A stretch of 64,000 nt of DNA from Cinnamomum chago (Eukaryota; Streptophyta; Magnoliopsida; Laurales; Lauraceae). The position numbers were made by a program, and so were the translations under genes. The notes under the pieces were generated by a model. The model saw only the letters and a program-made list of their open reading frames with translations, was not told where the DNA came from and did no database searches. Where the stretch lies: NCBI GenBank assembly GCA_038049695.1, contig CP142452.1, positions 66,283,501 to 66,347,500 on the forward strand, given 5' to 3'. Shown here in pieces: positions 11,265 through 55,141 of the stretch. Numbering within the stretch: the first letter of the stretch is position 1; every line of letters starts with the position of its first letter.

Positions 11265-11591
11265 GGGATGAGACCATAGTTATCAATTTCGCTTTGTTTC
11301 AACTGAAATTTGTTGTTTTGCCATAAAGCCAAAACGAAGTGTATGTTGTAACTATTTGGTTTGACTTTTGGCCAGCTAAAAATATGGATTTTAGCCAAAA
11401 TTGACCGAAATTTCTGAAATGATCGAAATGTTGCAGGGAATGTGTCTAAACTTCAATATTAAAAGTTGTAAACTTTTATTTTTATAAAAACTGCGTTTAA
11501 ACTTAATTATAGTAAGGAATTTGCTTAAATTTTATACTTGTATCTTATAATATTATTTTATTTATAATAAATTAAATGCATAAGTTCTATT

Positions 11592-11650
<59 letters not shown>

Positions 11651-11990
11651 TTATCATATATGTATTTTTAGATTTATTCATTTCTCCAAAACATAACTCC
11701 CAAACGTTTCACAGAAATTTCAAATCGGCCAAAACATTTCATTTTGGAGGCCCGATCAAAATGGGTCCGAAAAGAAATTAACAATTATGGATGAGGCACC
11801 CTTAACCACTGGATGTCTTGTGTTTCTCATAAAAAAGGGATATTATTTTATGATGTTTTTAGAAAGTGCTTTTCAAATATGGAATTCTTACACATAACAA
11901 TATGGAATTTCTTATCCATGCCAATATGCCATCCTCAAGAGTGGGACCCTCTAAATTAAAGGCATGGACTTGAATTCCTATAATGCAACC
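11265..11990 (-). repeat. Dispersed repeat, copy 1 (partner at 31750-32365, opposite orientation)
   Basis: The whole stretch matches the reverse complement of 31750-32365 at moderate identity. Shared blocks include TTAACAATTATGGATGAGGC, AACATAACTCCCAAACGTTT and the 'fff' of AAA/TTT-rich sequence around TTTATAAAAACTGCGTTTAAA. A long (ATT)n tract at 11593-11650 sits where the partner has only AT-rich sequence. No protein is encoded. Confidence 0.75.
11593..11650. repeat. (ATT)n microsatellite
   Basis: About 19 uninterrupted ATT units. It expanded in this copy only; the related copy near 32080 lacks it. Confidence 0.97.
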
Positions 11991-12736
11991 CTGCGGGGGA
12001 CTTCTTCAATTATAATATATAAATCTTGGAAATTATTTGCATTGAATTTTTGTGAAACAAAAGGGCACGACATGCTTAAGGGTGGGAATCATTTGATCGG
12101 AATAGTGTTGCATAGAAACCAACTATTCTGCTAGTATGTCCATCACCTTCTTTTTTGATTCTCATGCATCAAGTAACCCCACACAGGGTGGGAAATTTTT
12201 GGGGCACTGTTTAATCATACAATGTTAGATTTGAACTAGTTCTTTTGAAGAAATAAGATAAGGTTACATTAACTACTTTCTTACCAAATCATATCCATCC
12301 AACCAAAGAGTATTTGATGATGGAATGTAAGTCTAATTACATATCATAAGCCCATAATTGGTTCCAATGAAGATACCAATATTCTCACTCACTCCAACCC
12401 GAAATTAAGATTTTGCATCCAAATTGCATTTTGGGTTGAGTCCGTATTTCTAGTTGTGCCAAGTATTCAAATTTATGAGTTTGGTTTTGCTTTTAAATAA
12501 TATAAAGTCTTCTAGAAAATATTTCTCTACAATATTGTATCACTTTCTAAAAAATTATATATGTCAGAGAGCTTCTTAGAGATGAATGACCAAATTACAA
12601 AAGCGGAATTTTGGGCATTTAAAATCAAACATATTAGTTTTAAATATGAAATACAATCATTTTGGAATGTCGTCCCATGTTCTTATTTTGAATATCACTT
12701 ACCCCATGTTTGGCATCTCTATTTTTAACCTCTACT
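11991..12736. other. Intergenic, AT-rich, nothing recognised
   Basis: I see no gene, no clear repeat ends and no RNA gene in this stretch. Confidence 0.5.
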
Positions 12737-14910
12737 AGATGTGCACTAAACACACAGTTTTACTAAGAATTTTTTTTTAAAAATTAAAATTTTAAAAAAA
12801 TTCAGTAGAAACTTCAATACATTTAAAAATAAAATTTCAACAGAAAATGAGTGATTGTAAATTGCAAAGCCCATGCAATGTCCAAATACAGCTGACACTA
12901 CTTTTTTCATATATATTTGAAAACAATAAAATAATGATCATAGTGAGAAAAATGAGATCTCAAAAGACAATCGATAAGGAATTTATATAACTTTTTGAGG
13001 ATATAAATCACATATTTCTAGATATTCTATCATGAATGTGTACAAAGAAATTTCAATTTACTTTATTTAACCTGTCAGGCCGACTTATCAATTTCCTAAT
13101 AGACTAAAGCTGGAGTCCAGTCGAAAACATAGTCAAATTGATAACCTGCAATTTTATAAAAAATAAAAATAAAAAGTAAGAACCCGATGAGCTTACTGTT
13201 CTAATCAATTATCCTGAACATTATATGTTCACTACAAAATCAAATTCTACTAAGGAAAAAAATTAATTGTATCCTACCTAAGGACATCAGAATAACAAAA
13301 CTGAGATGATGGTTTTAGTCTTAACTTACAAAGAAGAATAATATCTCACACCGACCGTCAAGAATAATGAAGTAATTAATCCGGCTTGTCCTCAAGCGAC
13401 ATGGATCAACAATGGTGGAACTATGATATGAATTCTGACTGGTAAGATTTGTAGAGCACCTGTTGATCAATATTAGTATTTAACATGTGCTTTGTTTTAT
13501 TTTATAAGACGGACCATTATCAGGTAAAAAGAGGTAATACCTCTCCAAGAGTCAGCATCTTCTTTTGCTTGATACAAAGTGTTATATTTTAGACCATGTA
13601 AGAAAATGATAATACAAAGTAATTATAAAAGTTCAGTTAAATGGAAGCTCACAAATAAAGATATCAATAGGGGAAAAAATACCACAAAAAAGGACTACAA
13701 ATACAAATATGCCAAAAGAATTGGACATTCCTCTTAAGAAATACATAAGAATGTAACCTAGGTATTCTAGATCAACTCTTCTGCTCTGTTCTGTATAGAG
13801 GAAGGGAGTGTTGATCAAAGTAAGAAAAGTTCGAAATGAACAAAGACAAACTGAATTTGTTACAGCCCGGCATCAAATACTTATTTTAGTTGTTTACACT
13901 TAAAACGATCACTTCATTCACTGACTCTGAAGTTAGTAGTAACGTTAGCAAAACAAGTAATTTCTATGAGATTCTCGTTTTCCCTTTAAGGAAAGGTGTG
14001 ACGTTTCAGTGAAATATATGAAAGGAAGAAGAAGAAGCTTGTAATCTTGTAATGATGAAAGAAATAAATGTATTAGAAAATGATTAAAGTTTCTCAATTT
14101 AAACCTCATGAGTAGGAGCAATAATAAATAAATATATTCATGCCCTTGAAATGCCCTTTTATAATAAAAAAATTTTACGAAAGTTGTATGTTAAGAAACT
14201 AAAAATTGTACAGAACAATAACAATTTTACAATAGTAATGTATAAGACCTACCACTAAATTGCAGTTATGAAATTATCTTTAGCAATCACTAATATCAGA
14301 AGAGAACCAATATTTAGTAGTACTTATCACATTATCCAACTTGTGATTATTCTTCCAACAAGGGTATAAATCAAGATCAATACAACTATTATATCAGATT
14401 AAAAACTCAATTATTCTAACTAAATAAAATTCAAAGACATGAAGCAAAAGGGAAGAGAGTATTTAATTTTTTTAATGGTAACTTTCATTAAAAGAGAGAA
14501 AAAAACAGGGTGGACATAAAATGAGTTTAAGTTTATACATTTGACTTTCTTATTTATGATATTTTGTCAGTTGTTACTTTTTTTTCCAAAAAAGAAAAGG
14601 AAAAACTAAATATAAAACAATAATGCAAACGGAGTGCCTGTATATATGGGATGTGCTTATGAGTTTTGGAGGTCCCTATACCTTTTTGAAAGGCCATAAT
14701 AAATAATATACAATGGAAGGAACATCAAATTACAAATATTTAAGGTACTGTACAAAAGATTAAAGGGTTAATATTTAAAAAATCATAACAAAGAGTTACA
14801 TCCGTACAAAGAACATAATCTCATATCTTCTGGAAACCTACCGGAGCCCTCTGATATTCTGAACTCTCAAATTTTAAATACAAATACCACTCAAGTATCT
14901 TTTAATTCCA
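12737..14910. repeat. 2.2 kb direct duplication, copy A
   Basis: This block is repeated in the same orientation at 15294-16325 plus 23115-24262, roughly 90 percent identical by eye. Landmarks include CGGCTTGTCCTCAAGCGACA (13382 and 15932), AAGAGTCAGCATCTTCTTTT and TTAAAGGTACTGTACAAAAG-like sequence near the end. It holds many stops and no recognisable domain, so the nature of the duplicated DNA is unknown. Copy A is uninterrupted and therefore shows the state before insertion of the element at 16326. Confidence 0.9.
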
Positions 14911-15109
14911 CCAAAATGTGGATTAGTGAATTCCACCAGCCAATTTAAAAAATAGCATGTACACTATTAGGAATATAGAAATTTCAAAGAGAACTATTGA
15001 ATGCAAAGCAGAGTATGAGACAAAATCCATTCGCCCCATGGTTTAGTAACCATATTATCAAAGAATCACCAAAAATCCTTTTCTTTCCCATAGGTGTGTA
15101 GTGAAAAAT

Positions 15110-15293
15110 GTGTGTAAAGAAACAAGTACTACAATAAGGGTGATTTTTATTATTTTTATAAGGGTGGGCCTCACAAAGGTGGGCCTAGGTGTGAAACCAA
15201 ATGACATTATAAAAGTGGGCCCAGGTGTGTAATGAAACCAAATGTTTATAAGAGTATATATATATATACACACACACTAGTGGAGCCTTGCAC
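15110..15293. repeat. Short-unit repeat with GTGGGCCCAGGTGTGTA motif
   Basis: Between the two 2.2 kb copies lie two to three partial units with AAAGTGGGCCCAGGTGTGTA and GTGAAACCAAATG. Related units recur at about 26370-26560. It may be a MITE-like family or a degenerate minisatellite. Confidence 0.5.
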
Positions 15294-16325
15294 GTGCACC
15301 TAACACAAAGTTTTAGAAAGAAAATCTTAAAAAAATAAAGTTTTTAAAAAATTCAGTAAAAGTTTCAATACATTTAAAAATAAAATTTCAACAGAAAATG
15401 AGTGATTGTAAATTGCAAGGCCAGTGAAATGTCCAAATACAGCTGACACTACTTTTTTTCTATACATTTGGAAACAATAAAATACTGATATAGTGAAAAA
15501 AATGAGATCTCAAAAGACAATCGATATGGAATTTATATAACTTTTTGAGGATATAAATCGCATATTTCTAGATATTCTATCATGAATGTGTACAAAGAAA
15601 CTTCAATTTACTTTATTTAATTTATCAGATCGACTTATCAGTTTCCTTGTAGACTTGACCTGCTAAAGTTGGAGTCCAGTCGAAAACATAATCAAATTGA
15701 TAACATGCAGTTTTATAAAAATAAAAATAAAAATTAAGAACCAGATGAGCCTGTTCTAACCAATTACCATGAACATTATATGTTCACTACAAAATCAGAT
15801 TCTATTAAGGAAAAATAATAATTATATCTTACCTAAGGACATTAGAATAACAAAACTGAGATGGTGGTTTTAGTCTTAACTTATAAAGAAGAATTACATC
15901 TCAAACCGACGGTCAAGAATAATGAAGTAATCCGGCTTGTCCTCAAGCGACATAGATCAATAATGGTGGAACTATGATAATGATATGAACTTTGACGGGT
16001 AAGATTTGCATAGCACCTGTTGATCAATATTAGTATTTAACATGTGTTTTGTTTTATTTTATAAGACAGACCACTATCAGGTAAAAAGAGACAATACCTC
16101 TCCAAGAGTCAGCATCTTCTTTTGCTTGATACAAAGTGCTATATTTTAAACTCTGTAAGAAAAGGATAATACAAAGTAATTATAGAAGTTCAGTTAAATG
16201 GAAGCTCACAAATAGAGATATCAATAGGGAAAAAATACAAAAAAAAAAAAAAAACTACAAATACAAATCTGCCAAAAGAATTAGACATTCATCTTAAGAA
16301 TTACATAATAATGTAACCTAGGTAT
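15294..16325. repeat. 2.2 kb direct duplication, copy B, left part
   Basis: Matches 12737-13767 of copy A. It stops abruptly at GGTAT (16321-16325), where an LTR element is inserted; the similarity to copy A resumes at 23115. Confidence 0.9.
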
Positions 16326-17579
16326 TGTCACGACCTAAATTCTGGGGCCCTATCAGATATCCGGATCGTGGTTAGTTAGCAACATTCACCATTCATTCAT
16401 CAAATAAGTTTCACAAGGAATCGGGCATTTAGTTCAAAATATATTTCCTAGGGGTGTAACGGTTTGGTTAACTGGTCAATTTGGAAAAACCGTTAACCGA
16501 ACCGTAACCGCGGTTTTCTATCTTTTAAAACCGTAACCGTATCCACAAAAACCATGGAAAACCGTAACCGCGGTTAACCGTATTAAACTGTTCAATTACG
16601 ATTAATAGCCGTGTAATGCCTTCCTCACATAAGGGGATAAATGTGAATGAAGGTAAAATAACACATAATAAGCAATTGAATAAAAATCCCATTGATTGGT
16701 AATCTATACCCTACTAAATGAAATCCAACAAAACCGAATATCACAATTCAACACCTTGAACATTTCAATCTTACCACATTGATAATACTTGCAGAACCCT
16801 AAAATCCTCTTGCAGAGAGAAACTCCCTCGTGCAAATAATCACCACCAAAGAGGGGGAAAAGTAGAATGCATCAGTCTTAACTATGCATAAAAAAATACA
16901 TATACAAATAAAATAAAATAAACATAGATCAGCACTCCAGATTGGACTTGTCAAGCCAACTGGAATTGTACATAAAGACGAGGAAAGAAAAATAATATGA
17001 TATGACACAAGGAACAAAAACATGCACTGCTGAAATCCTTTCAATACAATATGTGTATCATCTGATTTTTTTTCTCTGTAATGAAAAGGCAATCATATGT
17101 AAGTCTGTATTTATCTACAGGATCTTAGACATGGAGAATGTTAAGGAAATGGACGGCAAAAGAATGTACAATCCAGGAGTATGTCTAAGGGGGGAAAAAG
17201 AAAATCAGAAAATGCAGCAAATTCTCTACATTAAAATTTAAAGAGAATTAGCTCAAGCTCATGCAGGCAGGTGAGCTCAACTATCCACTAAACTTAAACC
17301 CCAACTATCCACATTTAAGTTGCTCCTGTAAACCACTAGCTGATAAATGAAATGTCTAAAGGTCTACCAGGCAGGATTTTGTTTATGATGGAAAATCACA
17401 ACTCTTCCTGCTCACCATCCAGTGACCAGTCCATAATGCATCGGATCTCTAGGGATCAAGGATGGTGGAAATTGGTCTTAACGGCAATCAGCAGCCACTT
17501 GTTCCCTTCCATTCCCCATCTTGCAACAAATGGAACGCCAGGAAAACCTCAAGATTCTACCCACATTTCTCTTCTTCGC

Positions 17580-19972
17580 TGTTACATTCCATTTCGAGTT
17601 AATCAAGATTAACTCTAATTAATTGAGATTAACATGGTTTAAACGAACGTGAATAATCAACTTAAGAGTGATTAATGACTAAGATGGATCAAATTAGTCT
17701 TGAATAAGGTAAATTAAGCATAATGAGAGAGTTTGGGAGAGATTAGTTTACTTGAGTTGGTTTTAGACTCGAATTAATGGCATTAAGGATTTTTCCATAA
17801 ATACGAAATTTAGTGTATTTCATTGAATACGGTAAAACTTGATACCATCGTGTGCATCTCGATGAGTACAACATTTTTCATAATACACACATTGTCATGT
17901 GGCTTAACATGAATCAAATGGATCTTGAATTGACTTAAATTAGAATTAAGCAAAATGTATGGGATTCATATGCAAAATGCCTATGATATGTGTCAATAAA
18001 CCCAACCTTCATGTAATGAAGTGTCTTCATCCCAGCAAGTTTGAGGAAAAGGAAAAAAAATAGCAGCTTAGGTTTTCTTCTTTGTTCTTGGCTATCAAGT
18101 GATTGAATCAAGGAGTTGTCAAAGGAATTTGATAAGGAAAGTGATTTTCATCTTCTCCATCACCTTCTCCATCAAGTGGGTTGTTTGTTTTCTTAGAAGT
18201 TGGTGATTTTGACTCAACTAGAGGTGGAAACAAAAGGTTTGTGTTGAATCACAGCAAAAAGACAAGTATAAACACTTGTTTATGATTATATGTTATTTGT
18301 TTGAGAGTTTATGTGAGTTTGATTGTTAGAAATAGATGTTGGTTGATTTGTTTTGATGAAATCATTAATTGAATCAGTTGAATGATGTTTATAATGGTTG
18401 CATGATGGAATAGAAGTGTTGTATATGTTGTATGAAGTAAGGATTGAGGTGGGAACAGGAGGTTCCAATTTTTGTTACAGGTTTTGGGCTGAAAAACAGA
18501 ATTCTGTAGCAGTTCTGGATGTAGCTCGGTCAACCGGCCAAATAGAATTTTGCTCTCTGGAAACCTGAGCAAAACATTGTTCCGGATTTCTGGTTACAAC
18601 TGTCGGTCGACCGAGTATACATGGAGTGGGTCGACTTGGCCTTCGCAAGTCGACCGAGCTCCTAGTTGACGGGGTCGACCGACCAAGGCCTCGGTTGACC
18701 GGGTCTTCTGAGAAATTAAGAGTTCATCTAATTTCGCAAATGTAATTTTGAGGTTCATTAGACTGCGATCAATGGATAATGAGGTTATTATAATTTCCAT
18801 AAAATGTTGTCTTTGGATTGTCATCCAAAGTAAATTATCTGTTAACCAAATGTTAACTAAAGTTAATCGTAATTCAATGATAAATTCCAAAGCTAATTCG
18901 TAATGCATTGATAGATTGTACGAATTCAGCAGTAATTCAGAATTTAATTTTGAGTGTTAGAGGATTAAGCCTATTGAGTGTTTCAAGGCTGTTTATGTTC
19001 TTTATACCTCCATTGGTGTTGATTCAGGGGACTTCAATGTACAAAATCCACATATAGTGTAATGTTCATCGAGAATAACACGTACATTGAACAACTGAAG
19101 AGTACACTTGAATGGATGATATTAGTTACTTATTTAATTGTTTATCGAATTGTATCCATTTAATTGAAATGTAACGGTATTGAAATGAAATGATAATTGA
19201 ACTGTTCATTGAGTCTGGCACTACATGGTGATTTCTATTAGCTCGTTTGAGTTGATTTTACTGCAGCAGATTATTTGGGGGCGTTCCGGAGCTCCGTGGT
19301 GATATCAGTTGTCCCTTGCCCGGACTCTGATAAGTCCCACAATATATATAAATTCTTTCTGTTTAGGAAGATGCAATCCTCTCCTTTGAGGGAGATGGAA
19401 ATGGAATTGAATTGAATTGAAATATGCTATTGTAGTTGCCAAGTTAAAAGACTCTTATTAATTATGAATTGGAATTGGAATTGAACTAGTCTAACGATAA
19501 GTTAGATGAACTGAATGTATCATTAGCATGTTTAATCATATTATTATTTATACATTGTTGAATTGTGAAATTCATAGTGTTATTGATGGCATTACAGGCA
19601 CAGCTGCCCATGCCGGTCCTTCTGAGACCACAGCGCCACCGGAGACGTCCGGTACGGTTCCTCCAGGAGGACTAGTAGAATGGAAATGAGAGAGAAACAA
19701 TGAGAGTAGAAAGAACACTTTCTTTTGGAATTGGAATGGAACTTTTATACTTTTAATCATTGCCTTGTAATTAAATAGGCAAGTGATTAGTTTGTATATA
19801 GTGTAAATCAATTTTGGTTTTATTCAAACAATGTATATTTGTGAAGATTTCCACATAATATATATTTGATATCCGTTGTGAATTTTAATGCGTTGAGATT
19901 CACGGGAGTAATTATGCGACGCGACTCGGGATTATCTCGGATTAGTCCTAATCTCGGGCTCGGGTCGTGTCA
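17580..19972. mobile_element. Probable solo LTR inside the hAT element
   Basis: Starts TGTTACATTCC and ends CGGGTCGTGTCA. The flanks TTCGC (17575-17579) and TTTGC (19973-19977) match at 4 of 5 positions, fitting an aged target duplication. Interior marks include a cluster of TCGACCG palindromes at about 18530-18710 and a GC-rich block near 19600-19670. No coding frame, 2393 bp. The ends are my inference, because no second copy is available for comparison. Confidence 0.6.
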
Positions 19973-20019
19973 TTTGCACCCAAACGGAATCAATCTTTCC
20001 TTTTTTCAAAGAAAAGCAA

Positions 20020-20650
20020 ATCGAGAGAGAGAGAGAGAGAGAGAATAAGTGGGCAAGGGAAGAGAGTGGGCAGGGAGAAGCAGGGTGCGGACGGCTGGGC
20101 AGAGGGTGAACGCAGGGAGAGAAGGGAAGGAGAGGGAGAGAAGAGAGAGGGATAGCAGGGAGGGGGGAGGAGATAAGAGGCGAGCGGGGAGAGTGGAAGA
20201 GGCTAGTGCGCAGTGGGTGCGACGATGTTGCAAAGAGGGAAGGGGAGTGTACCTGCTACAGGGGAGGCATCGCGTGAGGCGGAGGAGGAAGGTGAAGGCA
20301 CTGCGGGAGTTCGGGGGGCTGCTGCATGTGTGCGTCCGGCAAAAAGATGAAGATGGAGGTCCGTCTAGCGGAGGAATATGAAGATGGCGGTGCGTGAGAT
20401 GGGTTGCAGGGAGAGGCGAGATTGGTTGCGCAGGATGATGAGCTTCGCGTGATGGAGGAGGGGAGATGGAGATGGAGGCAAATGGAGCAGGAGATAGAGA
20501 GGGTGGTGGGCGATGGAGAGGTCTGATGGAGAGGCTGAAAGGGAGAGATAAGAGATGTTGGTGGTGATGTCGTGTGAGGGAGATGGAGATGGGAAGCCAG
20601 CTGGGAGTTGGGAGATAAAGGCGTGAAAGAGTGAAAAGGGCTAGGGTTTG
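20020..20650. repeat. GA-rich segment of the hAT interior
   Basis: Begins with (GA)11 at 20023-20044 and continues as low-complexity purine-rich DNA, giving long but compositionally biased open frames (Arg/Glu/Gly one way, Ser/Leu/Pro the other). On the minus strand it looks like a CT-rich plant 5' leader, so a captured host promoter and leader is possible, but I cannot identify a source. Confidence 0.5.
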
Positions 20651-22892
20651 GTTTTGCTTCTTATGAATAAGGTAAGAAATATTTCATTCAACCCCCTTAT
20701 TTTTTCTTTTATTTGTAAACGGTACGGTTAACCGAACCGTATAATATGGTTTGGTTCGGTTAATAATTGTGATTTATTACGGAAAACCGTAACTGAACCG
20801 AATCGTGCGGTTTTTGGATTTCATTAATCGTAAGCGTAACTGAACCGTGAAATACGGTTATAACCGCAGTTCGGTTTGGTTCAGTTAGACAGTTTTCCGG
20901 TTTTTTTTTTTACACCCCTAATATTTCCATTTATAAATATCCAAAAATCTCTGAGTAATGAAACTTATTATATCCTGTCTCAAATCAATACTGTGCTTTA
21001 AACATTAAATAACTTCTCCTAAACAAGGACTAATAATTCTATCAACTATTTAAGTTTTCTCGTTCTCTCCCTTCAGCCATGCATGCCAAAATCTACGTGC
21101 TAATCATCATTCCACTCTAGCCCACCCGCAATATGATTACCTAAAGGGGGCAACACAACATCAGTATTAATGATGAATGAATTTTCCTAATTACACAGGC
21201 TGCATATAACATAATATCACATAATCAACAAATCTGAATCAATAAATCAAATATCATTAAAAGTACATCCATATGCAATTCCGTGCCCATGCACATTACC
21301 ATGCCTCAAAGGCCCATCATATACATGTATACCGGTCACCATGACCATGTCTCATCAGACACATCCACTAAGGACCAGCCTATACAAAGGCCATCAACCA
21401 TCCGGACACAAGTCCAACATCCCACGTCTGGGGACCTAGTGCACAATATTTCACAATTACACATCAATCATAACTCAGCATTATTAATGATTTATATAAA
21501 CAATAGTATGGATCCAATCCCTTCACAATTTACTAGCTACTGCTCCACTTCCGGTCATAATTGGTATTGAATGGTGTAGGGTGGCCCGCACTATTTTATA
21601 ACACAACATCACACAATATTAATCACAATCCACATAGTCAATATTAGTTCAGTAATCACAACTATACAGTTAATCACATAAACTTCAAGAAGTCTGACAA
21701 GTCCAGATCTGTCCCCAATTTATACACTATCCGTCCCCCTCTACATGCATAGAATGAAGAAAAACCATGGTTTATGCCTGAAGACTTGTTAATGAAAATC
21801 CAGTGGGTCCCACTTGGACAATCCATGATCAGACCCAACTTAGATGGTCGCCCAAGACTACAGTATCATATCCTTTGATCTAATTTATTATCAGACCATT
21901 CTCTGGGGCCCACTGATCCAAAACAATTTCCAAAAAGCTCCCAGAATAAGTCATGTCTGGGTTAATTTCATCCACAAAACAGTGGCTACCCACTGTTCCA
22001 GTACCCCAGATAGCCTTGATCTCTAAGGTTGCCCAGTAGTCCCTCACATTATGACTGGAGATGATTTCTAATCTAGTGGCCAGATGGGCCCTACTAAGGC
22101 TTGTCGACATGAAGCGCCAAACTTGACATCAATCGTCTCCTTTGTATTACAGCAATTGGATGAGGGCCCAGATGGGGTCCACTCCTCATCGGTCCAAGTT
22201 TACTAGGGTCGACCAAGGGTCCCTTACCAGATATGTGGTCTTGATCATTGATCAGGTCAATCGATGGGTCCCACAACTACAAACGACCAATCCTCTAATT
22301 TTTTATTCACTCACAATTTTGGAATTCTGGATACATGGATGGTGGGCCAAACAGAATTCAATCTTTGTAGGACCAACTCCTCCATGGTCGCCTATGGGCC
22401 CTCTTCAAGGTCCATGGTTCAGATTTATCATGTAGTGGCCCAGGGGGGTCCCACAACCCCTGACATGAGAAAACTCTCTTCATGTGGAAGAGGAATAATA
22501 GTGTAGTTCTGCACAGATTTTTCATTTGATCTTCTTCTTCCCACATAAATCATTATCATAAAGCCAAAACAATAATAGAATCCAATCCTTCCTATTCTAC
22601 CATGAAATTAACTCTTTCTTTCCACAACCTAGAGTCTGGGTGCATCGATGGCCATAACAGTCCCATCAAAACTGTATTCCTCAAGCATCTAATGTACCAT
22701 TTAAAGCATGAATTAGAATCATCTAGGAAGATCCACTCACCTTTGATAAACGATCATCACCTTTGCAACATGTGGATGCGAATAGGAAATCCGTCAGCCT
22801 TCTTCTCCTTCTCCTTCTCCTTCTCCTAAATTGCAATTCACAAGACTTTCTCTCAGAAGAAAAGATACCATCATAATGGTTGTTGGTTTGCT

Positions 22893-22915
22893 TTATATAT
22901 ATATATATATATATA
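22893..22915. repeat. (TA)n microsatellite
   Basis: About 11 TA units inside the LTR 3' part. A (CTTCTC)n-like run precedes it at 22800-22829. Confidence 0.95.
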
Positions 22916-23114
22916 AGGATGGGGTATAAACCTCCTAATTCTAGTCCTTCTCTTATATTTCCTCTTTTAGAGTTGTTAAACAACTCCAATCCCAAAAATG
23001 TACGACACTTCCCAATTTCATAATAAGTAATACTTATAATTCCATAATAAGAAATCAACTAAGGTACTACCTGGGCCACACTAATCCTTGGCCCAGGTAA
23101 CTCATGATATTACA

Positions 23115-24262
23115 GGTATTCTAGATCAACTCTTTTGCTTTGTTCTGTATAGAGGATGAGAGTGCTGATCAATGTAAAAAAAATTCAAAATGAATAAAGA
23201 CAAACTGAATTTGTTGCAACTCAGCATCAAATATTTATTTTAGTTGTTTACACTTAAAACGACCACTTCATTCATTGACTCTGAAGTTAGTAGTGACGCT
23301 AGCATAACAAGCAGTTTCTATGAGGTTCTCGTTTTCCCTTTAAGGAAAGGCATGGCATTTCATTGAAACATATGAGATGAAGAAGAAGAAGCTTGCAATG
23401 ATGAAAGATATAAATGTGTTAGAAAATGATCGAAGTTTTTCAATTTAAGCCTCATGAGTAAGAGCAATAATAAATAAATATATTCATGCCCTTGAAATGC
23501 CCTTTTATAATAAAAGAAAATTCACAAAAGTTGTATGTTAAGAAACTAAAAATTGTACTGAACAACACCAATTTTATGATAGCAATCTATAAGACCTGCC
23601 ACTAAATTGCATTTATGGAATTATCTTTAGCAATTATTAATATCAGAAGAGAACCAATATTTAGTAGTAGTTATCACATTATCCAACTTGGGATTACTCT
23701 TCTAATAGGGGTATAAATCAAGATCAATACAACTATTATGTCAGATTAAAAACTCAATTATTTTAATTACTAAATAAAATACAAACACATGAAGCAAAAT
23801 GGAAAAGAATATTTAAATTTTTTTAATGGTAACTTTCATTAAAAGAGAGAAAAAAACAGGGCGGACATAAAATGAGTTTAAGTTTGTACATTTCACTTTT
23901 TTATTTATGATATTTTCTTAGTTGCTACTTTTTTCTAAAAAAGAAAAAGAAAAAACTAAACATAAAACAATAATGCAAACGAAGTACTTGTATATATGGG
24001 ATGTGCTTATAAGTTTTGGAGGTTCCTATACCTTTTTTAAAGTCCATAATAAATAATATGCAACTGAAGGAACATCAAATTACAAATATTTAAGGTTAGT
24101 GTACAAAAGATTAAAGGATTAATATTTAAAAAATAATAACAAAGGGTTACATCCGTGCAAAGAAAATAATCTCATATCTTTTGAAAACCTCCCGGAGCCC
24201 TCTGATGTTCTTAACTCTCAAATTTCAAATACAAATACCACTCAAGTATTTTTTAGTTCCAC
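23115..24262. repeat. 2.2 kb direct duplication, copy B, right part
   Basis: Resumes the match to copy A (13765-14910) exactly after the second GGTAT. Landmarks: CTAGATCAACTCTTTTGCTT, ATTGACTCTGAAGTTAGTAG and CCCGGAGCCCTCTGATGTTC. The match ends near CTCAAGTATTTTTTAGTTCC. Confidence 0.9.
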
Positions 24263-26800
24263 AAAAAAAATAAAAAAAATAAACAAATAGAAACTATTTG
24301 CACAATTAGCATTGTTTCAGGTTAAAAAAAAAAGAGAATGTTAATTCTCTCGTGTGTAGTCAATTTGGTATTTGAATTATACTACAACCACCAATTGGCC
24401 ACCAACAACAATAACAAAAGTAGGAACCTAGTTTTAATACCTTTTATCGCGACTTTTAAACATATGACAAAGTATTTAAAGTGCCCACAAAATAGTAAGT
24501 ATTGAACTCCAAAAGGTAGTAAGTAAAATACACTTGATTCCTTTTCTTTTGATCCATTATAAAATACACTATTCATTTTCTTTTTTATTTTCATCCCGTC
24601 TTAGTTCAAGGTTTATTATTGGAAAAGCACATGACATTTAAGTTTTCAGAGTTAAAAGGCAGTATGTACACCATGAACCATATAATGGAGTAAATAATGC
24701 ATAGTTAAAATCTTTTGTTTTTCTCACATTGGCTTAGTTTATTAACCGAGGTGGACAAAATAGTGCCAAGAAAGACTAAAAAAACTTTTTGAATGATAAA
24801 ATCTGAAATATTTTTCCTTTGAAATGATTCTTTAATTGCACTATATCTCACAATTAATTTTACAAAGGACAAAAAAAAATTGAATAGAAATTTGGAAATT
24901 AGTGAACAAAATGGTTCAATGAGAACACGAATGAATGCTTATTGGTCCTATCCCAGTCGTGAGGGGTTTGGAGGGAGACGATTAAAGAGGCCTTGGTCTA
25001 AAGTGTAAGAATTTAACTAACATAAACTAAAACAAGAAAAATAAAAAAAATAAAATGTCAGATTCTTATACAAATATGGATTATGTTTTTGGCATTTTGA
25101 ATATTAACACCTGTACTGCTTAAAAAAAAGTCATTCCCCTTTGACTCTATGGAGAAGGAAAATAGATTATGACAGATAATGGAAAGCTTTTACATGCCTC
25201 ATAGCATCGTCCTTTTAGTTATTGTCTACTTTGCATTTCTCAACCAGGACACTTTCTGTTTGAGTTTTCTATTTTCCTATCTCACATAACAAAACAGTAT
25301 CAATTTTACATTTTAAATGCTATGTACAAATTCATATTCCAAACATAGAGTGAGAACTAAATACAAAGTTCTATCATAAGGAAACACGAAACACGCACAA
25401 TTTGAAAGCTTGCAGTTAAGATTCAAGAAATAAAACAGACATATAATTAAAATTATCAGAGCACGAAGGCTATCAATGGGCCTAACTTTGACCCAAACAG
25501 GAATGAGAAAGAAAAAACCAACTCTTCATCATCATTTTCTTAACTCTGGTTGCACCCATTTTTCTTATAATGAAGTTTTTATTTCAACATTAAAAAAAAT
25601 TTGAAGAAGAAGACATAATCAAACAATAATAATTACAGTAGATAGTGCTCACTTACATGTATGAAAACTTCATTCATTCCAAAAGAAGCTAAGAGTTAAT
25701 GAAGAATCTGTTAAAATATTATGTTCTTCCTTACACAATTACTCACAGAGGAAAAACCTCATACCCACAAAATTCCCTACATTGAAAACTTGTAGTATCT
25801 AAATAAGAAGAATGTTAAAAGAAAATTAAAAAAAGAAGAGGGAAAAAACAACATTTGAGATATTGATTTGAGATAGATTCTAATATTATCGACATTTTCA
25901 TTTTCTTTTCTCCACCACCTTAAAAAAATTTTACTTGATTTATTGGAATGTATTAAAAATGAGATTTTATTACGTTTAAAATATCAGCATCTACTCAATA
26001 TAAGAGATTAAAAAAATTACTAGGATTGTGTGTGCTAAGTTTGGTTTGGATCCGGGTTCATTTGGGTTAAATTATTAGGATCGTGTGTACCAAGTTTGGT
26101 CTGGATTTGGGTATAGTAGGGGGTAGTTAGCGATTTTCCAGAGAATTTAGGGGGCTTTTTTGTAATTTTAGATTTTTGAGATTATGGTACCGTTGGGTAG
26201 ATATTTTTTATTCCTAAACTTTAGTCTGCTAGATCATCTTGATCTGGATCCTTAAAACCCCACCAAATCCAAGCTTGACGCAAAGTCTATTTTAGACGAA
26301 TTGGAAAATTTCCATTATGTCCCCATATTTATCCATATATAAAATACATATACATAATAAATATATAAAAGGGTGGGCCCCACAACTTACATTTCATTGA
26401 CTATGTGTGTAGTGAAAAAAGTAGATCATCTTTCTCTCTTTTATAAGAGTAGATATAGATATATATATATATATATATATTATAAAAGTGGGCCCAGGAA
26501 CCCAAATGACATTATAAAAGTGGGCCAAAGTGTGTAGTGAAACCAAATGTCATTTTGTTCTCTTTTATGAGAGTAGAAGATAGATAGATAGATGTGTCTC
26601 AATGTCCAAAGGGGATAGAGGTTTAGAAAATAAGAATATTTGGCACACATATATACCCTCTACCTACTTTAGAGAAGTAGAGGCAAACCCTCTAAAAACT
26701 AATTGCCTCAATTTTGGGCGATTGAAAATGAGAGGCAAAAAAGTAAAAGCGGGTGGACAGTACCTTGGACGTCCTCCTGACCTAGTCCGTTCTTTTAAAT
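24263..26800. other. Intergenic, AT-rich, no gene seen
   Basis: No domain in any frame. The part 26370-26590 holds units related to 15110-15293 and a (TA)n run at about 26457-26482. Two similar phrases ending CCAAGTTTGGTCTGGATTTG occur near 26035 and 26090. Confidence 0.5.
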
Positions 26801-31749: not shown

Positions 31750-32365
31750 TAGCTCACTTGGAAGAGATAGGAATTCAAGACCATATCTTTAATTTAGAGG
31801 GTCCCACTCTTGTGGATGGCATGGATAATAAATTCCATATTGTTATGTGTCAGAATTCCATATTAAAAAAAGCACTTTCTAAAAACATCATAAAATAACA
31901 TCCCTTTTCAATGAGAAACACAAGATACCCTAGTGATTAAGAGTGTCTCATCCATAGCTGTTAATTTCTTTTCGGACCTATTTGGATCAGGCCATCAAAA
32001 CAAAATGTTTCGTTGGATTCAAGATTTCGTGAACGTTTGGAAGTTATTTTTTTGGAGAAATAAATAAATCTAAATATACATATATGCTATAATAATAAAA
32101 AAAACCAAATATAATTTATGCATTTAACTCATTATAATAAAACAAATATTATACGGTACAAGTATAAAATTTAAGCAAAATCCCTTACTATAATAAAGTT
32201 TAAACATAGTATTTATAAAAATAAAAGTTTACAACTTTTAATATTAAAGGCTAGACACATTCCTGACAGCATTTCAGCCGTTTCATGAATTTTGGTGGTC
32301 AATTTCAGCTAAAATCCATATTTTCACGTCAATATCAAATTTGGCGAAATTCATTGTCATAAAAT
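31750..32365 (+). repeat. Dispersed repeat, copy 2, with a tRNA-like head
   Basis: Reverse-complement relative of 11265-11990. Its left end has TTAGCTCACTTGG (fits the RNA polymerase III A box TRGYNNANNNG) and, 20 bp on, AATTCAAGACC (one mismatch from a B box). That arrangement would fit a SINE head, although no foldable tRNA is present. The rest is AT-rich and non-coding. It ends about 230 bp before the presumed KIN13A transcription start. Confidence 0.6.
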
Positions 32366-33166: not shown

Positions 33167-53018
<19,852 letters not shown>

Positions 53019-53530: not shown

Positions 53531-54867
53531 TTCAACATAAGTTTGTACGAGTTTAAAGAAAGTACTGTGTATTGGTTCGGCAGTCATTAAGAGTCCTTTG
53601 GATTCTTGCTTAATCCACTTCACTGAGTAGAAACTGTATGATTCAATGGGGGGGAAATACAACAGTTAATTACTTTTTCTTGGGTAAGTTCTCTACAAGT
53701 ATACACTGAAATACGCTTCAATCTGAACTCATCCTTTACTACTAAAGGTATGTTGATTGGACTAATCTTAAATTCATCTATGTTTTACCGAAATTCCCGT
53801 TTGCCTGCACTTAATATTAAACTAATAGAAATATGTAACAATGAGTGAGATCAAAGACTTTATTGAGGTACTCAGTAAGGATTTAACGTGGAGATAAAGA
53901 AGAGACACTCGTGAATTGATTCACCAAGGCAGTGGTGGTTATAATGATTTCTTATCAAAGGGAGAGACTATTTGATGATGTCACCTCCACCCCAGTTTTC
54001 TTTCTTTTTGATAGGGAAGGCATTGCTTCAGAATCCTGAAAATTCAATGCTGAATTGCGAGTGGGGCCTCGGTTAGAAGAATCACTGTAACTAATTTCCA
54101 CTTCATTTTGTAAGTTGGCTTCTTTTAGTGATACATGCAGTTGTCATTGCCCTATTCCCGTTTCTGGTGCAAGGCCAGTTAAGGTTTTGATAGAATAAAA
54201 ATAAAAAAAATAATAAAAATTGCATGTATCAGTGGCCTGCACACAAGCTCATTGCTTGTTAAGGCCTAGTTCTGTATCAGGTGGTCTTAGGAAGCCAACC
54301 AATGGTCTGCAAGATGACCCACAATGCAAAAAAATGCGGGCCATTGTGCACATCAGTCTTAAGTGATCAAACATGGCATTGCACTACTTCTTTCAACAGC
54401 TGCTTGACATTGTTCTCATTATATTTGATGGGCGAGTGTTCCACACCAATGCCCTGGATCCATTCAGGTTACCTTAGTTTATCTATGCAGGACTATAACT
54501 AATTTTGCAAGGATCTCCTGAATTCTAAGAAATATGTTATCTGCAGGGAAAGGTGATGAGAGAACTGGGTTGGTTTTTGGGTCAAGTCTTCTGTCGCAGG
54601 TACACTTGATGCATGCTTGGGCACCTGCATATGTTTACTGCATCCCATACATCTGGCAAAAGCCTGAAGCCGTGCAAAAGAACCTCATATCTTGAAGTGA
54701 AACAGAGCAAGGGCTAATAAATCATATTATATATAATCTGAATGCACACAAATGGGATCTAACCTAAATATCTCAACAATAACCTAAATATCTCAACAAT
54801 AAATTCCAGCCCTCTGATAGTTGTCCTGTGAACATATACATGGATCTTCCAATGTCAGAAACTCTAT
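53531..54867. other. Intergenic between KIN13A and NOP16, left part
   Basis: No recognisable gene. A 21 bp phrase AACCTAAATATCTCAACAAT is doubled at about 54762-54802. Short frames here show no domain. Confidence 0.45.
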
Positions 54868-55141
54868 GGGCATTCATTCCGGTCATTGGACAAGCACCAT
54901 ACAAAGCTGAATTACTTTTCAACACAACAGGATTTTATTACCAATACAAGACACTACAAATGATTCCAAAGTACACACTACAAATCATCTAGCATACTCT
55001 TGTGGGCATTCATTCCGGTCATTGGACAAGTACCATACAAAGCTGAAATTACTTTTCAACACAACAGGATTTTATTACCAATACAAGACACTACAAATGA
55101 TTCCAAAGTACACACTACAAATCATCTAGCATACTCTTGTG
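54868..55141. repeat. 136 bp tandem duplication, nearly exact
   Basis: Two copies (54868-55003 and 55004-55141) run from GGGCATTCATTCCGGTCATT to CTAGCATACTCTTGTG with about two differences. On the minus strand each copy has TTGGTAATAAAATCCTGTTG, which looks like a poly-A signal context of a transcript. Confidence 0.95.

Follow-up and report, generated by a model that had tools for sequence, protein, structure and literature searches.

Nested insertions, probably successive, in a Helitron-like copy at one locus of Cinnamomum chago

How did a 2.2 kb sequence in the genome of Cinnamomum chago come to stand twice, side by side and in the same orientation, with one copy (A) intact and the other (B) split by DNA that is itself interrupted twice? 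The locus lies in a stretch of 64,000 nucleotides (C2:66283501-66347500), referred to here as the window, within a genome of 1.06 Gb in 14 contigs that was searched for related sequences. An earlier note, made from the window alone, had proposed a local duplication followed by insertion of a long terminal repeat (LTR), then a hAT element and then an inner LTR. We put a probability of roughly 0.88 on a different beginning and the same continuation: a Helitron copy (B) was hit by an LTR retrotransposon, then by a hAT element carrying scraps of gene sequence and then by a second LTR retrotransposon, with A and B being separate Helitron copies. Every component of the locus is of an already known kind.

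Copy B is split at GGTAT. The outer insert (16326..23114, minus strand, approximately 2.3 kb without the hAT, with the LTR 3' end on the left) reads TGTCACGACC...ATATTACA, has TG...CA termini and is flanked by an exact 5-bp target-site duplication of GGTAT (16321..16325 and 23115..23119), a motif found singly at 13761 in A. Alignment of the two copies confirms that the breakpoints coincide with GGTAT; of 2155 aligned positions, 203 differ between the two (9.4%, or 90.6% identity), giving a Kimura two-parameter (K2P) distance of 0.102, with 0.092 for the left part and 0.111 for the right. Within the outer LTR lies the hAT (16449..20920, approximately 2.07 kb without the inner LTR), which has the two features expected of this superfamily, both exact in the window copy: an 8-bp target duplication, ATATTTCC, at 16441..16448 and 20921..20928, and short terminal inverted repeats (TIRs) of 11 bp, TAGGGGTGTAA. 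The hAT in turn contains the inner LTR (17580..19972, 2393 bp), which reads TGTTACATTCC...GGGTCGTGTCA and is bordered by a near duplication, TTCGC (17575..17579) on the left and TTTGC (19973..19977) on the right. All three inserts and their duplications are as the earlier note had described them.

Genome searches with the element ends, in each of which 40 matches were scored and the other matches among those 40 counted, support three of the six ends and agree with the limits drawn previously. All 39 other matches listed for the outer LTR left end (from 524 first-look candidates) start at query base 1-3, equivalent to 16325-16327. At the hAT right end, the 39 other places scored (from 947 first-look candidates) all stop at query 160-167, where 161 corresponds to 20920, and for the inner LTR right end the stop is at query 153/154 (19972/19973) in 36 of 39 other matches and at 145, 151 and 157 in the remaining three. 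For the right end of the outer LTR and the left end of the inner LTR the placement follows from where the flanking sequence resumes, and the hAT left end reads TAGGGGTG in 8 of the 9 hAT copies fetched.

Each insertion also has relatives that are uninterrupted at its site. Copy A is usable as the empty site for the outer LTR, as had been suggested, though it is one of many such copies. The hAT site is empty in all seven outer LTR copies fetched, which are continuous from 16441-16448 to 20920-20954. For the inner LTR, two loci elsewhere in the genome (L051 and L052) both read TTCTTCGCACCC, identical to the flanks in the window joined through one TTCGC; since both carry this sequence, TTCGC was the original form of the duplication, whose right copy has changed from C to T at a CpG. 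The proposed succession of LTR, hAT and inner LTR thus holds, whereas its first layer, the duplication, does not.

Solo LTRs of plant LTR retrotransposons consist of a single LTR with TG...CA ends and a 5-bp duplication. Both inserts resemble these, having in addition relatives with a primer-binding site (PBS) or with paired matches, and no difference was found in the features examined. In two of the seven fetched relatives of the outer LTR (L002 and L006) a PBS-like sequence, TGGTATCAGAGC, stands beside the LTR; directly past the LTR end on the minus strand both carry AGTGGTATCAGAGC, which we take to be the primer-binding site for initiator-Met tRNA, and the other five do not. Because the PBS-like sequence adjoins that end, the outer LTR is placed on the minus strand, and because the window flank at the PBS side is Helitron sequence, with no internal region, it is taken to be solo. 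The inner LTR is likewise solo, no second LTR being present in the window copy. Its right end resembles the end of the outer LTR that faces the PBS, which suggests a plus-strand orientation, and seven same-strand pairs of matches lying 6.9-10.5 kb apart suggest, by their spacing, that two-LTR relatives exist. No terminal direct repeat was found within either LTR insert (the outer one holds a single 11-base chance word), and a reading of the inserts as miniature two-LTR elements was rejected on this ground. An LTR retrotransposon would therefore, on our reading, have inserted into B at GGTAT and later been cut to a solo LTR by inter-LTR recombination; a second would have entered the hAT at TTCGC and been reduced in the same way. 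That both LTR inserts are solo had been omitted from the earlier account.

The hAT is filed as non-autonomous on the basis of its TIRs and target duplication. No Pfam match was found in three frames of the window copy, and the genome was not searched for an autonomous partner. Its interior, 16615..20670 with the inner LTR excluded, is probably captured DNA. The part searched (16660-17590) is low copy, with six first-look candidates of which one is the window itself, and the interior is matched piecewise by three loci. Positions 16871..17526 match L050 at 92%, the match beginning approximately 50 bp past the 3' end of a frame encoding an AP2 domain (E 4.8e-15). L051 matches 17299-17579 and 19970-20691 (cleanly to 20670 by eye), and L052 matches 16615-16876, 17523-17579 and 19970-20036; the TIR words TAGGGGTG and CACCCCTA were not found in 3.3 kb of either locus. 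The pieces shared with L051 and L052 probably represent captured, putatively genic, DNA. The host gene sequence between TIRs that marks Pack-TYPE elements is represented here by gene-flanking, not coding, DNA beside the AP2-domain frame. We infer from these matches that the window hAT has captured low-copy host DNA and belongs to the Pack-type elements; it would have inserted into the outer LTR at ATATTTCC.

The fetched relatives of this hAT are miniature inverted-repeat transposable elements (MITEs). Eight of the nine, at 490-509 bp, have an exact 8-bp duplication, which L047 lacks, and in all nine the left half, to 16683, is joined directly to the right half, from 20671. Compared with these MITEs the window hAT carries approximately 1.6 kb more (inner LTR excluded), and the extra DNA is flanked by a 7-bp repeat, TGAATAA, at 16677-16683 and 20664-20670. 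Which form came first? The extra DNA may be an insertion into a ready-made 500-bp MITE, with the TGAATAA repeat as its target duplication, and the MITE join itself is in line with this: it reads TAAATAAGG or TAAATAAGA (TAAATAA) in seven of the nine copies and TGAATAAGG (TGAATAA) in just two. However, L052, in which no hAT end word was found, has the segment 16615-16683 continuous with the extra DNA, reading CAATTGAATAAAAATCCC as the window does (the window right junction reads CTTATGAATAAGGTAAG), and the extra DNA has, by eye, neither terminal inverted repeats nor TG...CA ends. We consider an insertion into a MITE unlikely, if still the strongest of the alternatives. A change from the window form to the MITE form, by deletion between the TGAATAA repeats and a subsequent G to A change within one branch of the short copies, is more likely than such an insertion, without being offered as established, and the MITEs may be deletion derivatives of the window form. 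Tentatively, and at somewhat less than even odds, the window hAT would be an undeleted relative of the MITE founder, from which the captured DNA was lost by one TGAATAA-TGAATAA deletion before the short form spread, still keeping about 70 bp of captured DNA (16615-16683).

Pack-TYPE hAT elements and hAT MITEs are treated together in PMC8903248. As far as the accessible part of that paper goes, the window element agrees with them in its 8-bp duplication, its TIRs, its captured low-copy DNA and the coexistence of MITEs of approximately 500 bp. It differs in arrangement: acquisition by neighbouring insertions, as we understand that part of the paper, would place a whole MITE on each side, whereas in the window each side has a complementary half. 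In contrast to that route, the join near TGAATAA suggests that the MITEs came from the capturing element by internal deletion.

For the sequence lineage, the succession from Helitron B through outer LTR and hAT to inner LTR is secure. Nesting orders events in that lineage; the order of A and B does not follow from it, nor does it tell whether the hAT itself inserted here or arrived inside the LTR element. Because both LTR inserts are solo, nesting also cannot place either recombination before or after the next insertion. A hAT already present in the outer LTR element when it inserted here, compatible as it is with the nesting itself, is improbable in view of the seven hAT-free LTR copies described above: the LTR query ended at 16447, short of the hAT site, so these seven (among the 39 listed) were not chosen for lacking the hAT.

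What, then, are the two flanking copies? A search with A found at least 35 other places that match at least 2,000 of its 2,211 bases at 87-89% identity, among the best 40 of 593 candidates that were scored; the scored matches did not include the split copy B. Twenty of the 35 were fetched with their flanks, all from the list of unbroken matches. Copy A (12735..15276, minus strand) is a short form of approximately 2.5 kb, with its 3' CTAG at 12735-12738 preceded by A, a 3' hairpin that is not intact, and a right limit made uncertain by a (TA)n/(CA)n run. Copy B (15277..26592, minus strand) is a long form of approximately 4.5 kb without the insert, with its 3' CTAG at 15277-15280, a shortened hairpin and a TC-type 5' end near 26592, inside a GATA run. 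The limits given earlier for the two segments were too short, as family similarity continues to approximately 15268 in A and 26592 in B. Indeed, L028 is collinear with A over 12741-15268 at 89% identity, and three long-form copies (L019, L024 and L025) are collinear with B from approximately 23114 to 26042 or further.

The termini of this family largely agree with published Helitron ends, which in the accessible part of PMC2267711 comprise a 5' TC, a 3' CTAG, a hairpin 10-15 bp from the 3' end, and flanking A and T. CTAG followed by T (minus strand) forms the 3' end in 15 of the 20 fetched copies and in both window copies. The hairpin expected 10-15 nt upstream is present at the level of the family, as an exact stem CACGTGC-NNN-GCACGTG in eight copies and with one substitution in three more, and is shortened or lost in the remaining nine as well as in both window copies. 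At the opposite end the family reads TC(TATC)nTACTCTTATAAAAGAG, with the 5'-end word TACTCTTATAA downstream in 16 of the 20; in L021 and L032 an A followed by TCTATCTACTCTTATAA may be read as the 5' end, the exact start being blurred by a (TATC)n run. A and B are members of this dispersed Helitron-like family. In several copies (L024, L034 and L035) the 5'-end words are repeated, mostly at intervals of about 150-180 bp.

A tree of 22 copies (A, B and the 20 fetched; 200 bootstrap trees) separates the two. Copy A pairs with L028, a copy 61 Mb away on C2 (support 100/99), and B groups with L026 and L030 (100/96); a clade of A and B occurs in 0% of the bootstrap trees. The A-B distance (K2P 0.102) compares with 0.097 as the median for the 20 others, B is nearer to 18 of the 20 than to A, and the right parts of A and B differ as short form and long form. 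Since the family has many dispersed copies and the tree splits A from B, we regard them as separate insertions, not a duplication. They abut head to tail, both on the minus strand, with the CTAG of B following the microsatellite-blurred 5' end of A. In L030, near 5975 (family orientation), a Helitron-type CTAG directly precedes a TACTCTTATAA 5' end; with this second head-to-tail junction, at least one of the 20 loci repeats the arrangement. In maize, according to the accessible part of PMC2267711, two Helitrons abut with the 3' CTAG of one at the 5' end of the other, and consecutive insertion was proposed as their sequences differ. The window pair is alike in its head-to-tail abutment; unlike the pair reported there, A and B belong to different subclades of one family, and their junction has a 5' end blurred by a microsatellite. 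The related Helitrons A and B would thus have inserted independently, head to tail. It is likely but unproven that B arrived after A, at the 5' end of A.

Several observations count against this interpretation. The 5' terminus of A lacks a clean edge, which leaves its junction with B ill-defined; the adjacency and shared orientation of A and B would equally be given by a tandem origin, and of the 20 other copies 16 are more distant from A than B is. As regards the family, the exact CTAG with following T is missing in 5 of the 20 fetched copies, the exact hairpin in 12 of them and in both window copies, and the 5' word in four; no Rep or helicase Pfam match was found in three frames of copy B, and the genome was not searched for an autonomous partner. 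The GGTAT site is uninterrupted in all 20 fetched copies, which, having been taken from unbroken matches, establish the existence of empty copies and not their frequency. Finally, in terminal branch length the outer LTR (0.061, approximately 580 bp) and the hAT (0.067) do not fall below B (0.040). Because branch lengths do not decrease with nesting depth they lend the order no independent support, in a comparison that uses short alignments and element types that may change at different rates.

Two accounts would make A and B products of one event. They could have arisen together as a head-to-tail concatemer, by rolling-circle read-through of a single Helitron, as their order, common strand and abutting ends would allow; head-to-tail junctions and tandem arrays are reported from plant and bat genomes in the accessible part of PMC5876387. 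The units of a concatemer are, however, expected to be near-identical sisters, and the tree, which places A and B in separate supported subclades and forms, leaves this account very improbable. Weakest of all is the opening step of the earlier note, a local duplication of a 2.2 kb segment, which the adjacency, direct orientation, 90.6% identity and relative closeness of A to B favour, and which we reject on copy number and tree, given the 35 other matches of at least 2,000 bases, an A-B distance not below the family median, the smaller distance of B to most fetched copies than to A, and the different forms and supported clades of the two (unless gene conversion erased their relation).

Elsewhere in the window, 11379-11981 and 31767-32324 form an inverted pair of approximately 0.6 kb with 85% identity that may represent a further transposon family. 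Reverse transcriptase (RVT_1) and zf-RVT frames at 44694-46522 (minus strand) mark a remnant resembling a long interspersed nuclear element, which holds an internal 138-bp tandem duplication, and 50119-50466 is a fragment of a kinesin motor domain. Two-copy tandem duplications with 92-98% matches occur at 35058-35471 (209 bp), 54867-55141 (137 bp) and 51806-51968 (88 bp). Rfam and tRNA scans of the window gave no matches.

The locus is a layered and checkable record of insertions, with an uninterrupted relative available for each of them. If the window hAT is indeed an undeleted relative of the MITE founder, the origin of a MITE family through loss of internal sequence from a gene-capturing element could be followed here base by base. 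The locus also counsels caution, in that a similar sequence nearby is not to be taken for a duplication until the remaining genome has been searched.

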